Positions 45,525-52,641 of a stretch of 64,000 nt of DNA are shown piece by piece (position 1 is the first letter of the stretch; each line of letters starts with the position of its first letter). A model generated the notes under the pieces. That model searched no databases. It was not told the DNA's origin and saw nothing but the letters and a program-made list of their open reading frames with translations. Location: assembly GCA_903899015.1 (NCBI GenBank), contig CAIUHP010000043.1, positions 62,001 through 126,000 on the forward strand. The letters run 5' to 3'. The stretch is from an uncultured Armatimonadota bacterium. GTDB lineage: Bacteria; Armatimonadota; Fimbriimonadia; Fimbriimonadales; Fimbriimonadaceae. The translations under genes were made by a program, and so were the position numbers.

Positions 45525-46727
45525 TCATTTAGGACCCGGTCCGGCGCTAAACGAGTTAACGAGCTTCGTGTAATCAATTAAGCCCCCGAGCCTGCCTAGA
45601 TACCGTGGAGGTAGGCGCAATATGGAAGTTCGATTCGCAATGACCGCATCTTTCAGGTTGCTTACGTTCGTGGGATTGCCGTGCCTCAAACCATCCGCGA
45701 CCGCTGCGGCAACCACCGGAGAGGCAAAGGACGTCCCCGACCAAACCGCTAACGAGCCGTCCCAGAACTGGCTCGCAAACCCAATTGCAGGTGCCGAAAT
45801 GGCGCATGACGTGTGCCAATTACTAAACCAAGCCTTTCGATTCACCGCGTCGAGACCACCTACGCAGATGACATCCCCAAATTTTGCAGGATAGCAAGCG
45901 GCACTTTGTCCATTGTTTCCAATCGGAGCAACCACGAGTAAATTGTTCTCGGTACACCAATCAATCACGTCGCTGAGGGCGGGAACTTCGAGCAGGGTTC
46001 CAAGCGAGACGTTCGCGACCTCGGCACCTGAAGTCACTGCAAAAGCCAGTCCCTTTATCACTCGCCATCCCGTTGCACTGCCATCAGAATCGGCAACGCG
46101 GGCTACCACAAGGTGAACTTGTGGAGCGACTTGGTCGACAATCCCGGCGATCATCGTGCCATGGCCGACGGCCTCGTCCACAATGCCGTTCCCATTTGAA
46201 TCCGTACCTTGTGGGATGTCATAGGCCGGTTGATCTGGCTCAACCGCGTTCATTGAAGCGTCAACCTTGGCCCACAGAGTCGTTTGTTTGGGTGCAAGAC
46301 CGGTATCCAAAATCGCGAGTTTAACCGTCCGGCCTGAGGAAAGCGATAACGTTTTGTTCCAATTAATCTGGCGAAGCAGATTCTTATTGATCGTTTGCAG
46401 GGTAGACCGACTTCCCACTGCAGGAAGCCCTCCACCTTTTGTGGGCTTACCCTTGGATTCATCTTCCGGCGAAACGACATCGCAGTCATCTTCTAACCAA
46501 ACGATTGACGGATCATGTTTCAAATTCCCGAGAGTGCGCTCGTCGGTAGCGGCATAGAGAGCAAACGGGGCCCCCGACGTGGAATCTTGAAGTGTTAAAC
46601 CGTATTTGGTAGCGATCTGTGCAGGATTGGTGCCCGGAGTAACACGACAGATGATGCTCGTCTGGGCACTGGCAAACCCAGCGGCCAAAACACCAAAGAC
46701 GAGAGTTAGCCTAATGACATTTTTCAT
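45525..46727 (-). CDS. S8 family serine peptidase (subtilisin-like), exported
   Basis: About 400 residues from ATG 46727 (MKNVIRLTLVFGVLAAGFASAQ), a clear signal peptide. An inhibitor-I9-like prodomain (CRVTPGTNPAQIATKYGLTL to VWLEDDCDVV) precedes the protease. The triad is Asp141 (LAILDTGL), His189 (GHGTMIAG) and Ser333 (GTSFASPVVAA), the oxyanion Asn lying in PIGNNGQSAA. Last gene of the sigma/anti-sigma/CHAT operon: its ATG overlaps the CHAT stop as ATGA (46724-46727). Predicted periplasmic or secreted, unlike the cytosolic CHAT protein. Its substrate is unknown. Confidence 0.92.
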   Translation of the reverse strand: MKNVIRLTLVFGVLAAGFASAQTSIICRVTPGTNPAQIATKYGLTLQDSTSGAPFALYAATDERTLGNLKHDPSIVWLEDDCDVVSPEDESKGKPTKGGGLPAVGSRSTLQTINKNLLRQINWNKTLSLSSGRTVKLAILDTGLAPKQTTLWAKVDASMNAVEPDQPAYDIPQGTDSNGNGIVDEAVGHGTMIAGIVDQVAPQVHLVVARVADSDGSATGWRVIKGLAFAVTSGAEVANVSLGTLLEVPALSDVIDWCTENNLLVVAPIGNNGQSAACYPAKFGDVICVGGLDAVNRKAWFSNWHTSCAISAPAIGFASQFWDGSLAVWSGTSFASPVVAAAVADGLRHGNPTNVSNLKDAVIANRTSILRLPPRYLGRLGGLIDYTKLVNSFSAGPGPK

Positions 46728-49357
46728 GAACAGTAACCTGCATAGAGAAGCGGAAAAGCCCAATAATACGGGTGGCTTCTCCATTGTCGTACTGAATCTC
46801 GGCCTTGCCGTAGCGATTCATTGATATTTGCGCTGAGATCGAATGCTCGATAGAACGCTGAGAAGAATTTCATGGCCGCCTCGTCATCGAGTGGCCATGC
46901 ACTTCCAACAACGTAACCTGCACCGCAAGCGAGAAATGCCCGTACTAAGCCATCTGGCTCTAAGCGATTCAATCCTGAGAGTCGAGCCGTATCACATCCG
47001 GAAAGTGTCACCAGTTCCGCCCGTAGACCAGATCGCGCGATCTCAGCCGCAAGAACCGGGCCATCGGTGAAATCAAGCGACGAGAACATAGGGTGGTTCG
47101 GTCGATAGCGTGAGTGAGAGATAACATGAAGGACCGAAACGTCGACTGCTCCCAAGACTTCACACACATCCTTTGCCGATCGACAGATGATTGCGTTGGG
47201 ATAGATTTTCAAGAATTCGTCGGCCTCTTCACTGGCTCTTGGAAGATCATCATGCTCCGCAACCCAGATCATTGCCGGCTTCGCGCGATCCATGGATAGC
47301 TTCCCACGCAGTCCCGGATGCAACCGGATTTCGAGGTCTCTTTGCTCCCCAATGGCCTCTAAGCAAGCAAGCCATGGTACGCGCCAAAGTTGTCCGTCTG
47401 GACAGATTCCGATCGTTCCGGTACCACCGATAACCCTTCTCAGAAGTGTCTTTCCCAGGCCTTTCAGTCCGTCCATTGCGAGCGTAGGTGGACTATTGGG
47501 ATCGGCAAGAGGAGCAACAATATCAAAATTCAACCAATCGAGGGTGCGTTCTAAATCCATCTCACCCAATGGAATTTGGTCGAGCGATCCATCGTGTAGG
47601 ATCCGAATGCAAGAAGGGTCTGCGATGAATAGGTAGGTGTCGCTTTGAATAGGTCGAGGCTGAGGTGATCCATTGTTGAAGGACATCAACGAGTGAGTTT
47701 CTTCTAGCCAAATTCGTTGAAGGTGATCAATATTTCGGTTTGTCGCGACACTTCTTCGGCTTCCTTCCATTCCTAAAGATGGCCGTCCCTGGTTCAGTTC
47801 CTCTCGAATTCGAGACAGGCGAGATAGGTCTCGTCCTGGTGTCCGAACTCTTTGACTCAGTAGAACTTCGTCAAGAAGAGTTACCGAGCGAGTCTGAAGG
47901 ATGACTTGAGTCGCTTCGGTAATTCGGCTCTCGGTTGGTCGCGCGAGCAGTTCATCCAAATAGCTTCGAATGGCAGCTTGCTTGTCTACAAAAAAACTCA
48001 GGCGCCCTGATACCGACGAAGTACGCGCTTGATCGGCGAGAATGGCGCTAAACATTTTTCGGTATGTCCGTAGTCGTAGTCCACCTTCTTGTCGACGAGC
48101 CAGTTCAGCTAGCGCCCGCCAAAGGTTCTGCACCAAACCTTGACTACGAATCATTCGAATGGCCTGCATGAGGTCCTCGATGGGACCACCATTCTCTGCA
48201 GAAATGAGCAAAGCCCGGCTGAGGTGATACGGATTGCAGACCTGTCTCGCCAAGGTGAGAGAAGACTTCAAATGCTTCGAAGCTGATTCTAAACCGAGTT
48301 TAAACTCCAAATTGGCCAGTTCCATTTCCGTCGCCGCATGCCACGGCAAATTACCAATAGAGCGATATCGCCGGGATGCAGAACGCCAGTGCCGCCGAGC
48401 CTCTTCGAGCCGCCCCGTGGCAGAAATCGCTTGCCCAATTCCATATTGCAGATGCGCTCGGTGCAGTTCCGATACATGAACGCCTAATGCTTCCGCTTCA
48501 CGATAAGCGTCAGCCGCCTCCATGAAGAGATTCATCGCACTCAACGCATCGCCAAGATACTCAAGCACCCTAGCCATTTCAATTGGCTCTTGCTCGTGGT
48601 GATGTTTGAGAACTAACAGGTCTGCGACTGCAAGGTCTACGTCACCACTCAGTATGTGAGTGTAGGCAACATTGCCTTTCGCAATATCACTCAGTAACCT
48701 GCTTCCAAGTTGTTCTGCCTCGTCACTAGCTAGTTGAGCTTGCTTACGAGCCTCCACAGGATCGCCACCAAACAACTGACTTGTCGAAAGGGCCACTCGA
48801 CTGGACGAGGCGTCAGCTGCGAACCCATTCTCATTAAGAATATCAGCTAAACCTGCCAATTCGTGCGACGCTTCCCGGTATCGATCCTGCTGCATGAGCG
48901 CGTAGCCAACGTTGAGTCGGGCTCGGGCAGCGAGTCCCGGCTGGGGCAGTCTACTCAGGCCCTTTGCGATTCGATTGCCCAGCGAAACTGCTTCATCTAC
49001 TTTGCCCGCGCGTGCAAGCCCGTCAATCGCACCGATTTGAAAGGCAAGCTTATCCACGGGGTTCGTAGCGCTTGCGCCTGCAAGTTGAAAAGCCTCCGCG
49101 CTAGCGGACCACTTTCCAGACATGCGAGTGATGATTCCAAGCGATCGGTATCCGAGTGCTGCATCGTCACCATATCGAACGATCCACTTTGCGGCGCTCG
49201 ATAGTTTCGTGAGTGACGAATGATCTTCGACAAATAGCCGATAGACCTCATCGAAGAATGCCTTGCTGAGTCCTGGAGTCTCCTTCATTTGAGCCAGGAG
49301 TTTTGGAGCCTGAGCCGGCGACTGGACAATTCTTTCGATGACTTCAGATACTGTCAT
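46724..49357 (-). CDS. TPR-CHAT caspase-like protease
   Basis: An 877-residue protein without signal peptide. Residues about 1-420 are helical pairs of TPR type (repeated A-x-LG-Y/A-L patterns), then a linker, and the C-terminal CHAT domain (about 560-877). The caspase-like dyad is His748 in VLHVISHSRYRP and Cys788 in LVTLSGCDTARL, followed by GAGYVVGSAWPLDDEAA. CHAT proteases cleave partner proteins when their TPR domain senses a trigger. It overlaps the anti-sigma-like gene by 14 bases upstream and the subtilisin gene by 4 downstream, so all are translated together. A cleavage target among the operon products is likely, but this is inference. Confidence 0.92.
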   Translation of the reverse strand: MTVSEVIERIVQSPAQAPKLLAQMKETPGLSKAFFDEVYRLFVEDHSSLTKLSSAAKWIVRYGDDAALGYRSLGIITRMSGKWSASAEAFQLAGASATNPVDKLAFQIGAIDGLARAGKVDEAVSLGNRIAKGLSRLPQPGLAARARLNVGYALMQQDRYREASHELAGLADILNENGFAADASSSRVALSTSQLFGGDPVEARKQAQLASDEAEQLGSRLLSDIAKGNVAYTHILSGDVDLAVADLLVLKHHHEQEPIEMARVLEYLGDALSAMNLFMEAADAYREAEALGVHVSELHRAHLQYGIGQAISATGRLEEARRHWRSASRRYRSIGNLPWHAATEMELANLEFKLGLESASKHLKSSLTLARQVCNPYHLSRALLISAENGGPIEDLMQAIRMIRSQGLVQNLWRALAELARRQEGGLRLRTYRKMFSAILADQARTSSVSGRLSFFVDKQAAIRSYLDELLARPTESRITEATQVILQTRSVTLLDEVLLSQRVRTPGRDLSRLSRIREELNQGRPSLGMEGSRRSVATNRNIDHLQRIWLEETHSLMSFNNGSPQPRPIQSDTYLFIADPSCIRILHDGSLDQIPLGEMDLERTLDWLNFDIVAPLADPNSPPTLAMDGLKGLGKTLLRRVIGGTGTIGICPDGQLWRVPWLACLEAIGEQRDLEIRLHPGLRGKLSMDRAKPAMIWVAEHDDLPRASEEADEFLKIYPNAIICRSAKDVCEVLGAVDVSVLHVISHSRYRPNHPMFSSLDFTDGPVLAAEIARSGLRAELVTLSGCDTARLSGLNRLEPDGLVRAFLACGAGYVVGSAWPLDDEAAMKFFSAFYRAFDLSANINESLRQGRDSVRQWRSHPYYWAFPLLYAGYCS

Positions 49358-49877
49358 CTCGGATCAAGCGGTTCATTGGCGGAACTTGAAGAATCGTGTC
49401 CATCGAAACTAACTCGAAAGCTGTTTCAGATAGATCCTTTGCCGAAAATTGGAAACGTGGTCCCGATATCGTCACATTCGGTTGCCCTTCCATCTCCCAA
49501 TCACTTGACGGAAACTGGCCCATGATATTCCAGCCAGTGTCGGTTGGAGTCGCCATAAGCCGAAGGGATAATTCGTCCGTTCCGACGACTATTTGGAATT
49601 CATCAACGGGGCCTCGAGCAGGAGCGATTCCTCGCAACTGCAATCGATGACAAGTAAATATCTTCCGCGTTTCAGGCATTAGAGCTTTCGCTGCGCTGAT
49701 CCATTCACTAGGAGCGGTAAACCATTCTTGATGAGCCCTGGCTACGATCATTTTCAAATCGTTCACGATAATTAAACAGCTTTGGCAACTGTTGACGTGG
49801 GCGACAGTTGCTGCATCCGCAGTGCCATCCGCCATATCGGCAAGGCTGTCTCGAAACTGGTTGCAAGCATCCTTCAT
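49344..49877 (-). CDS. Zinc-finger anti-sigma-like protein (zf-HC2)
   Basis: About 177 residues from ATG 49877 (a GTG at 49904 is also possible). The N-terminus has the ZAS pattern: Cys5, His27, Cys31 and Cys34 (CNQFRDSLADM, then HVNSCQSC), as in zinc-binding anti-sigma factors that hold ECF sigma factors. No transmembrane segment follows, so it is a soluble, cytosolic regulator. The C-terminal 110 residues (PVDEFQIVVGTDELSLRLMA to LIRDDSI) form a beta-rich domain I do not recognise. Between the sigma gene and the CHAT protease gene, it is the best candidate for a CHAT-cleaved switch. Confidence 0.75.
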   Translation of the reverse strand: MKDACNQFRDSLADMADGTADAATVAHVNSCQSCLIIVNDLKMIVARAHQEWFTAPSEWISAAKALMPETRKIFTCHRLQLRGIAPARGPVDEFQIVVGTDELSLRLMATPTDTGWNIMGQFPSSDWEMEGQPNVTISGPRFQFSAKDLSETAFELVSMDTILQVPPMNRLIRDDSI

Positions 49878-49916
49878 GGTCAATCGAAAAGAGTCTGGAC
49901 TCACTTGGTTTGATAC

Positions 49917-50498
49917 TTAAATTTCGAAAAAAGATTCTTTTTTCAAAAGGACACGGAGTTTCTCTAAACAGCGAGCTCGAGTTGGGCCGATTGCTCCAAC
50001 CGGTATTCCCAGCGACTCGCTCACTTCGGAGTAGTTTTTTTCGCCTTCGAAGTACAGCGCTTCAAGTAGCTTTCGGCAGCGTTCATCTATTTTTGCAACC
50101 ATCGAGCGGAGAATGGCAGATTGGTTGGCTTCGATTGCAGAATTCTCGGCGCATGTTTCTTCCTTTGCAACCAACTCATCAAGCGTAATTCCGGCCGACT
50201 CCATATCTGATGTTCGACCTCTGATCCTTCGAACTCTCAGCGCCTCCCTACTTGCGGTAGTCCCGATCCATTTGGGTAAGGCAGCGGCTGACTCAATTCG
50301 GTCGATCGAGTTGAGCAGGCTTTGAAACGTTGCCAGGAAGACATCTTCGGCATCGTCCCGCTCAAGTCCGTGTCGGCGGGCGATGGAATAAACCATCGAT
50401 TGGAAGTTGTCGACCAATCGAGACCATGCTCGGGCATCCTTAGACTTGCATTTCTCCAGCAGTCGGGATAGTTCCGACGGATTCCAGGGAGTCTGCAT
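49917..50498 (-). CDS. RNA polymerase sigma factor, ECF (sigma-70) family
   Basis: A 193-residue group IV sigma factor. Region 2 is FQSMVYSIARRHGLERDDAEDVFLATFQSLL (in part: GLERDDAEDVFLATFQSLL) and region 4 is KLLEALYFEGEKNYSEVSESLGIPVGAIGPTRARCLEKL (in part: NYSEVSESLGIPVGAIGPTR). Opens a four-gene operon with a zf-HC2 protein, a TPR-CHAT protease and a subtilisin; the next gene starts within 12-39 bases. It would direct expression of a small regulon, perhaps including its own operon and the divergent lipoprotein gene 207 bases away. Confidence 0.93.
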   Translation of the reverse strand: MQTPWNPSELSRLLEKCKSKDARAWSRLVDNFQSMVYSIARRHGLERDDAEDVFLATFQSLLNSIDRIESAAALPKWIGTTASREALRVRRIRGRTSDMESAGITLDELVAKEETCAENSAIEANQSAILRSMVAKIDERCRKLLEALYFEGEKNYSEVSESLGIPVGAIGPTRARCLEKLRVLLKKESFFEI

Positions 50499-50705: not shown

Positions 50706-52091
50706 ATGAACACAACCATTAAGGCGAGCCTCCTAGTAGCAGCTCTTGCCATCGCAGTCGGATGCGGAGGCGGAGGAGCCAGCGGAGGAGCCGGAACTCC
50801 AGCCGGTCAACATGTCGGTTTCTTTGTCACTTCAAACGCCGGCCCTTTCGCGCATGTTTGGGTCAATGTCAAGCAGGTCAGTTTGACAAGTGCCTCGGGC
50901 AACGTCACCCTATTAAAGAGTTCTGCTGGCAAACCAGTTGATCTCTCAAGCCTTAACAAAGCCGGAAAGCAACTTTTCGCAGCACTAGGTGTTGGAAATA
51001 TTCCGCAACGTTCCTATTCGCAAGTTCAAGTTACAGTTGATAACAACGTTTCGGTCTTCCCAACCGGAGCGACCCATGGAACAGCCGGATCGTTTGTAGG
51101 TGCAACCGGTGCACTCAAGACCATTACGTTCCCAACCAATTCGACCGGAACTCAGCCCATCATTGCAAAATTTGACCTGAGCAAGTGGTCAATGGCTGGT
51201 AGCCAGGTAACCGCTTCTGCTCAGGACGATAGCGGATCACAAGTCGATTCGACGAGCCAGGAGCCGGAAGATTTTGAAGGCTCGGTGAGCAACTTATCGG
51301 GTACCGCGCCGACCCTAGCTTTTGATATTTCGGGTGACGGAAATACAACTCATGTAACGACCGACGCAACCACGACAATTGCAAATTCAGATGGTTCACC
51401 TAATCCGGTCTTAACGAACAACTCCAGAGTAGACATCGTAGGCACACTCGATTCAACAACACTGATTCTTGCCGCATCAAGCATCAGGATTCACGTTGGA
51501 AATAGCCACCAGCCAAACCGGCTTGTCGGTACAGTGGCAAGTGCCACCTCGGATGCCCTTGTCATCAACATCAGCGGATGCGAAGGCATTTTGCCAAGTA
51601 ACTCGACCGCAAATATTGCCACCACTTCGACGACAACTTACTTGGATGGGCACGGACTGAGCCTCACGCAAGCCCAATTCTTCACAGCAGCCGCTGTAGG
51701 AACGAGAATTGACGCGCAAGGTACCTACGACCAATCATCAAATACCCTTACCGCAACGACTCTTAGCATTCGTAAAGAAGGCGAGGGCGGAGATGGCGGC
51801 AGTGGTGGTGGAGGCGGCAACGACCAAGAAGCCCAAGTTCAAGGCGGCGTGGCATCGGTCGATGTTGCCAACTCTGCGATCGTCATGACCATCAGCGAAT
51901 ACGAGGGAGTTCTCCTTTCAAAGGGAGCAAGTCTTAACATCGCCACAACTTCCAGCACGGTCTTCAATGGAGTAACTCTAGCGACAATCACATCGGGAAT
52001 GAACCTTGAGGTTCGTGGAACGTATGCCAACAATGTCTTAACCGCAACCGAGGTCAAGCTTAACGGAGACGGGCACGGGGGAGGAGGCTAG
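50706..52091 (+). CDS. Putative lipoprotein with DUF4382-like and DUF5666-like domains
   Basis: A 461-residue exported lipoprotein: MNTTIKASLLVAALAIAVGC is a signal peptide with lipobox AVGC, followed by a Gly-rich linker. Residues about 38-165 (VWVNVKQVSLTSASGNVTLL, PVDLSSLNKAGKQLFAALGVG) resemble DUF4382. Then come three copies of a beta-rich DUF5666-like unit (FEGSVSNL, LVGTVASATSDALVINISGCEG, VQGGVASVDVANSAIVMTISEYEG) and a Gly-rich tail. Function unknown; probably surface adhesion or structure. Divergent from the sigma factor gene, so a candidate target of it. Confidence 0.75.
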   Translation: MNTTIKASLLVAALAIAVGCGGGGASGGAGTPAGQHVGFFVTSNAGPFAHVWVNVKQVSLTSASGNVTLLKSSAGKPVDLSSLNKAGKQLFAALGVGNIPQRSYSQVQVTVDNNVSVFPTGATHGTAGSFVGATGALKTITFPTNSTGTQPIIAKFDLSKWSMAGSQVTASAQDDSGSQVDSTSQEPEDFEGSVSNLSGTAPTLAFDISGDGNTTHVTTDATTTIANSDGSPNPVLTNNSRVDIVGTLDSTTLILAASSIRIHVGNSHQPNRLVGTVASATSDALVINISGCEGILPSNSTANIATTSTTTYLDGHGLSLTQAQFFTAAAVGTRIDAQGTYDQSSNTLTATTLSIRKEGEGGDGGSGGGGGNDQEAQVQGGVASVDVANSAIVMTISEYEGVLLSKGASLNIATTSSTVFNGVTLATITSGMNLEVRGTYANNVLTATEVKLNGDGHGGGG

Positions 52092-52245: not shown

Positions 52246-52641
52246 CTACTTGCTGCCGCAGCCACAACCGCCGCCGCCACATCCACAGCCGCCGCCAGAG
52301 GATTCCCCCTCACCTTGGAAGGAAGATCCACAACCACAACTAGACGTTGCGTTTGGATTCTCGATCTTAAAACCGCCTCCAAGAACTTCATCAACGTAGT
52401 CCACCGTTGAACCACTCATATAGCTGAGGCTCAGAGGATCGACATAGAGTTTCAAGCCCTCTTGCTCAAAAACGCTGTCGCCTTCTTCGGGCACTCCGTC
52501 ATCAAGTGCCATTCCGTAGGACAGGCCTGAACAGCCGCCTCCTGAAACCCACACTCGAAGAGCCGCATCCGTGTTCTCTTGCTTCATGAGATCGCGCAGC
52601 TCAGTTACTGCTCGTTCGCTCAGAGTAATCATGACTATCAT
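52246..52641 (-). CDS. erpA: A-type iron-sulfur carrier (IscA/ErpA family) with extended Cys/Gly tail
   Basis: A 131-residue HesB/IscA-fold protein. The three conserved Cys lie in VSGGGCSGLSYGM and SSCGCGSSF. Family members normally end a few residues after GCGSSF; here a further ~20 residues follow, rich in Gly and Cys (GGGCGCGGGGCGCGSK at the very end), giving four extra Cys. It passes Fe-S clusters to apo-proteins. The tail could bind metal or cluster. Two in-frame ATGs (52641, 52632) are possible starts. erpA versus iscA cannot be told with certainty. Monocistronic. Confidence 0.88.
   Translation of the reverse strand: MIVMITLSERAVTELRDLMKQENTDAALRVWVSGGGCSGLSYGMALDDGVPEEGDSVFEQEGLKLYVDPLSLSYMSGSTVDYVDEVLGGGFKIENPNATSSCGCGSSFQGEGESSGGGCGCGGGGCGCGSK

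Follow-up and report, generated by a model that had tools for sequence, protein, structure and literature searches.

Can a bacterial sigma factor be placed under the control of a cytosolic caspase-like protease outside any CRISPR context, and if so, where would that protease cut? The question is raised by a minus-strand operon in the window (the whole stretch of 64,000 nucleotides analyzed here), in which genes for a sigma factor (SIG), a small soluble protein (ASF), a TPR-CHAT protease (CHAT) and a subtilisin (S8) follow one another (Table 1). An earlier note, made from the sequence, had envisioned these genes as a proteolytic relay in which CHAT cleaves the soluble protein to release the sigma factor. 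All four open reading frames were confirmed in the window, as were the coordinates, the named residues, the 14-base overlap between ASF and CHAT and the ATGA overlap between CHAT and S8 that the note had reported; its assignment of SIG to the ECF type is borne out by the TIGR02937 match. ASF starts at the ATG at 49877, with the GTG at 49904 as an alternative, and S8 at the ATG at 46727 (the S8 catalytic triad is D160/H208/S352 in the numbering of the longer reading frame). Downstream of S8, a GC-rich hairpin can be read in the window sequence.

Table 1. Features of the operon and its divergent neighbor (positions are those of the window)
Feature	Position	Strand	Evidence and remarks
S8, exported subtilisin-family protease, 400 aa, triad D141/H189/S333	45525..46727	-	PF00082 1.4e-23; signal peptide
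CHAT, TPR-CHAT caspase-like protease, 877 aa, dyad H748/C788, S1 Asp D825	46724..49357	-	PF12770 8e-26; TPR_12 2.6e-8
ASF, putative anti-sigma adaptor, 177 aa from ATG	49344..49877	-	zinc-finger-like helical N-terminus, flexible linker with R88, C-terminal beta-domain
Arg88 codon of ASF, predicted CHAT cut site (A-R/G, cut after R)	49614..49616	-	62/62 orthologs; model segment 84-88 with pLDDT <50
Two-box motif AAGAG-N17-TGATACT, SIG/ASF junction, antisense to SIG	49889..49917	+	one mismatch to consensus
SIG, ECF-type sigma-70 factor (regions 2 and 4)	49917..50498	-	TIGR02937 5.3e-19; Sigma70_r2 5.6e-7; conserved first gene
Divergent gene, predicted secreted protein or lipoprotein with DUF4382	50706..52091	+	PF14321 1.1e-7

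A conserved four-gene module

Loss of the gene order in relatives had been named beforehand as a possible refutation of the relay, and the order proved to be conserved. A whole-genome search of the same taxonomic class yielded 28 further CHAT orthologs with scores well above the rest. Counting the window, the class set comprises 29 loci, all from Armatimonadota and Fimbriimonadaceae among them; 26 are testable, the remaining three being truncated by contig ends, and the order SIG-ASF-CHAT-S8 is present in all 26 (at L057, ASF was located manually, adjoining CHAT). Distances in the trees of the four genes correlate at 0.55-0.77, exceeding all 999 permutations, with a contribution from species relatedness. 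The invariable order, the co-varying trees and the conservation of both the CHAT dyad and the S8 triad indicate more than a chance arrangement: SIG-ASF-CHAT-S8 is a conserved module.

Variants of this arrangement are found farther afield. A second subfamily (L061-L068) has the order SIG-CHAT-ASF-S8, and other classes of Armatimonadota carry the same module, in some cases with additional genes or an oppositely oriented SIG. The same four parts occur in shuffled order in Actinomycetota, a phylum for which a comparable setting of sigma, CHAT, subtilase and carboxypeptidase-like genes has been published as group ECF54; there, a sample from the class of Actinomadura gave SIG, S8 and CHAT together at a minimum of 12 of 20 loci, with 11 readable adaptors. 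Loci from other phyla (L108-L123), compared with the SIG, ASF and S8 profiles, returned one weak SIG match (L118, E 0.002), and the module was not found there. At L187, L189 and L191-L195, CHAT adjoins one or two subtilisin genes with no SIG or ASF detected; a CHAT-subtilisin pair may exist independently.

A CHAT protease with separase-like features

The CHAT domain scores 91.6 bits against PF12770, for which the curated cut-off is 24, and the reading of the third gene as a TPR-CHAT protease with a His748/Cys788 dyad holds. Both residues are kept in 76 of 76 family members, so the protease is probably active. In the C-terminal profile, C788, E800-P801-x-G803, W821 and D825 align with the separase catalytic Cys, its EPsG motif, its Trp and the Asp four residues on. 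Separase cuts after ExxR, with D2151 reading the P1 Arg, while the Craspase TPR-CHAT protein has K670 at this position (PMC9729208). The candidate S1 residue D825 is kept in all 75 family members in which it was compared (55/55 within the phylum). Its equivalent is also found in 24 of 25 CHAT proteins unlinked to the module, a set partly gathered with a pattern containing that Asp. As evidence specific to the module, D825 was therefore downgraded: being general among CHAT proteins, it looks like an ancestral trait permitting cleavage at Arg, not a special adaptation.

Matches of the CHAT structural model include human separase (2.4e-13), Csx29 (2.6e-13) and DdvA, an anti-sigma factor from Myxococcus (1.7e-11). 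Sequence matches of the TPR part in the PDB were generic TPR or PPR proteins only and were set aside.

The adaptor and its invariant arginine

The second gene product had been described as a zf-HC2 protein. The residues C5, H27, C31 and C34 are indeed present and a membrane segment is absent, and this Cys/His pattern is the basis of the label; a search of Pfam and NCBIfam gave no trusted match. The metal ligands are found in 24 of 51 ASF orthologs, and the pattern in none of the Actinomycetota adaptors read. With so partial a distribution, the zinc finger was rejected as the defining conserved feature of the inhibitor, and since it is missing from about half of the adaptors, an anti-sigma role of the N-terminus is not proven for these. 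Common to all aligned orthologs is instead a core consisting of an 'AP...AK.LMP' helix, a linker with one invariant Arg and a beta-domain, the last being the best-conserved part in the alignment. Among orthologs from other classes, the N-terminus matches zf-HC2 weakly (E 0.001-0.013; 16-19.6 bits, curated cut-off 22.2), as does the C-terminus CarboxypepD_reg (E 0.004-0.0086, under the curated cut-off).

An AlphaFold model of ASF (ten sequences; pLDDT 82, pTM 0.53) places helices at residues 2-82 and a beta-sandwich at 94-165. No fold could be matched securely to the beta-domain (best Foldseek E 0.18; VIA Z 7.1 to CrdA), which leaves the carboxypeptidase-like assignment to the weak HMM matches and is no demonstration of a new fold.

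Between these two folded parts lies the only internal stretch of ASF with pLDDT below 50, residues 84-88, which holds R88; this residue probably sits in a flexible linker, as judged from the model. R88 is the sole invariant column among 51 aligned adaptors (the runner-up columns reach 44) and stays invariant when the 11 Actinomycetota adaptors are added (62/62; next best column 55/62). Its neighbors are usually small or aliphatic, in the context G/x-A/V-R-G/S/A, and all 11 Actinomycetota adaptors read V-R-S/G/A/D at the same position. When every Arg was masked as X before alignment, the column was still recovered in 46 of the 51 sequences, the five misses lying one or a few columns away; after the same masking in the alignment of 62, the single column is no longer recovered, which means that the alignment at this point depends in part on the Arg. 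In 25 realignments with shuffled linker residues, the count was at most 36.

Two-box motif at SIG

A motif with the consensus AAGAG-N17-TGATACA occurs in sense directly upstream of SIG or in antisense directly before ASF, and across 598 kb of loci scanned at up to one mismatch, nearly all matches fall at those two places. A gap of 17 gives 22 matches, other gaps 0-5 and the reversed motif 3. Four loci from other classes also carry the motif at or near the SIG/ASF junction. The spacing resembles that of an ECF promoter, the recurrence at two sites suggests local autoregulation, and the antisense copy, which other classes have too, would, read as a promoter, drive RNA back through SIG. Exact matches number 24 in 113 whole genomes, nine of them at the module locus; those outside the locus are at background level, and no wider regulon can be called from them.

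The motif was seen in the window and at L037, L055, L057, L058 and other loci, some of which have both copies facing inward across SIG. At L037, L041, L053, L054, L055 and L057, TGATACA(C/A)T is separated from the start codon of SIG by only about 8-15 nt, near enough that the SIG mRNA may be nearly leaderless.

Cellular location of the subtilisin

The description of S8 as a subtilisin with the triad Asp141/His189/Ser333 and a signal peptide is upheld by its PF00082 match and by a triad conserved throughout the module loci. Its proposed action in the envelope fares differently between lineages. By a hydropathy check, the N-terminus of S8 resembles a signal peptide in nearly every member of the class, in line with export in the window lineage, but the same check found no signal peptide in the linked S8 proteins of Actinomycetota (L176-L190). 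The role of S8 is thus not simply one in the envelope, and its cellular place appears to have changed within the module.

Comparison with known systems

The earlier note had drawn its parallel with Craspase, in which Csx29 cleaves the sigma inhibitor Csx30 (PMC10028731). The kinds of parts are indeed the same, but the nearest published context is a neighborhood of the ECF54 type. Genes for CHAT, subtilase and carboxypeptidase-like proteins lie beside ECF54 sigma genes, and proteolytic control has been proposed for this group (PMC8999054, citing Casas-Pastor 2021 and Huang 2015); in the literature searched, the context is listed without a tested mechanism. All three kinds of neighbor are found here, the carboxypeptidase-like one through sub-threshold HMM matches, and the likeness is one of gene neighborhood, compared by the published description. 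ECF54 is described without an anti-sigma factor, whereas the module has a putative adaptor with an invariant Arg, a predicted cut and a partly distributed zinc-finger pattern (24/51, and none in the Actinomycetota adaptors read).

Craspase (Csx29-Csx30-CASP-sigma) shares with the module a TPR-CHAT protease, a soluble sigma inhibitor (putative here) and an ECF-type sigma factor, and its cleavage reaction relieves inhibition (PMC10028731). It differs in having gRAMP, an S1 Lys and non-conserved sites, where the module has an S1 Asp, one invariant Arg and a subtilisin. For RAMP proteins, the statement that no CRISPR or gRAMP gene is in view can be extended from the window to the whole source genome, in which PF03787 found no gRAMP, Cas7-11 or other RAMP-family protein; control genomes give matches. 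The module is, therefore, not Craspase.

Other likenesses are structural or contextual. Separase (clan CD, Peptidase_C50) likewise joins TPR-like repeats to a caspase-like domain with a Cys/His dyad and aligned EP-x-G and W-x3-D, and it cuts at a P1 Arg, as predicted for ASF; unlike it, the CHAT protein here is bacterial, operon-encoded and without securin or cohesin, and ASF lacks the P4 Glu of ExxR. DdvA of Myxococcus (PDB 8rot, 8rw5) also puts a CHAT domain in the service of sigma-factor control, but as one membrane anti-sigma protein, whereas the module divides CHAT and the adaptor between two soluble proteins. ZAS or zf-HC2 anti-sigma factors share the HxxxCxxC pattern of the ASF N-terminus; over half of the ASF orthologs lack the ligands, however, and ASF has an added carboxypeptidase-regulatory-like beta-domain and no membrane segment. 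In EACC2-caspase systems (Kaur 2021, PMC8195603), ECF sigma genes again adjoin caspase-fold proteins, but their partner domains, EACC2 and DUF1822, were not found in the module.

A proposed switch and its alternatives

The soluble protein encoded beside the ECF sigma factor is likely to be the CHAT substrate. What the computation shows is which genes are present and in what order, that the catalytic residues are conserved, that one Arg of ASF never varies and sits in a probable flexible linker, and that CHAT has an Asp aligned with the separase S1 Asp. A cytosolic protease-controlled sigma switch, in which CHAT would cut ASF after R88 and thereby free SIG, is the reading we favor over its rivals, at about even odds. 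At rest, the N-terminal helices of ASF (probably zinc-bound in the window species) would keep SIG inactive, as synteny and the zf-HC2-like sequence suggest. A signal reaching the TPR domain of CHAT would activate the His748/Cys788 protease, which, with D825 in its S1 pocket, is predicted from sequence and model to cut ASF after Arg88 in the flexible linker. The halves of ASF would then part or be degraded, and freed SIG would transcribe its targets, which the DNA motif suggests probably include its own locus; in the window lineage, exported S8 and the divergently encoded secreted protein may be a co-regulated extracytoplasmic output. Once cleaved, the inhibitor of Craspase no longer functions, possibly because it is degraded further (PMC10028731), and by analogy ASF could be inactivated in the same way. 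A conserved cut site is not demanded by that precedent, because Craspase orthologs cut non-conserved sites (PMC11106740).

Several alternatives deserve weighing against cleavage after R88. CHAT might dock at the Arg segment and regulate without cutting, through a conformational switch, or the Arg might contact SIG or RNA polymerase; invariance of a single residue would suit a binding hot-spot equally well, and DdvA provides an example of a CHAT-containing anti-sigma factor. The dyad, intact in every family member, and the position of the Arg in a predicted flexible segment, followed by small residues, argue for a protease that cuts, and the non-cutting reading seems unlikely, if worth serious attention. 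Cleavage could also occur with sigma release as a secondary effect, the liberated beta-domain being the active signal or effector. Such a role would fit this domain being the best-conserved part of ASF, and the fate and role of Csx30 fragments in Craspase are unsettled (PMC10028731); the adaptor, however, always adjoins the sigma gene wherever the four genes are readable, and the beta-domain resembles no known family of effectors, making this quite improbable.

About as hard to favor, and given slightly less weight, is a proteolytic cascade in which the subtilisin is activated by CHAT or itself cleaves ASF, with sigma control only indirect. S8 belongs to the module throughout, and the Actinomycetota enzymes lacking a signal peptide could meet CHAT in the cytosol, but in the window lineage S8 is exported and would have to act before export to encounter ASF or CHAT in the cytosol. 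Descent as a remnant of Craspase (type III-E CRISPR) can practically be dismissed. The parts are of the same kinds (TPR-CHAT, sigma inhibitor, sigma factor) and Csx29 is among the top fold matches of CHAT, yet the RAMP protein is absent from a genome that is 99.9% complete, CHAT keeps an S1 Asp where Craspase has Lys, and an S8 partner is regularly present; absence of the RAMP protein led to rejection of this reading.

The predicted cleavage of ASF after R88 invites a broader view, which we hold tentatively and with less than even confidence: that CRISPR-free switches of this kind form a widespread family in bacterial signaling, each with a separase-like CHAT protease that cleaves a dedicated sigma-factor adaptor after a universal Arg. 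On this view, Craspase would have branched off from an older way of releasing sigma factors when CRISPR captured it. To our knowledge, sigma release by CHAT proteolysis has been shown experimentally in type III-E CRISPR systems only, and these were likewise the only systems for which the literature searched reports such experiments. No description of the adaptor, its Arg or its cleavage was found in that search, outside of which the primary ECF classification papers lay. ASF with its invariant Arg is likely to be the missing piece of the ECF54-type context. The Arg gives a cut prediction at the level of a single residue, for what would be a relative of the Craspase switch that works without CRISPR. 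If true, one chemistry would connect ECF54-type regulation with Craspase and with eukaryotic separase, and the module would supply a compact pair of protease and substrate whose site is defined.

Divergent and neighboring genes

Divergent genes for predicted secreted proteins lie upstream of SIG at many orthologous loci. The DUF4382 protein is found in the window and one relative, and its gene is a possible co-regulated output. A small secreted family of about 125 aa, without a Pfam match, is encoded divergently at 13 loci (L035, L036, L037, L041, L045, L050-L055, L057 and L059) and is possibly an output of the module or a substrate of S8. At L061-L068, this place is taken by a gene for another secreted protein, about 310 aa long and again without a Pfam match. 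Farther along the window, positions 52246-52641 on the minus strand encode an Fe-S_biosyn (IscA-like) protein whose C-terminus forms an unusual tail rich in Gly and Cys.
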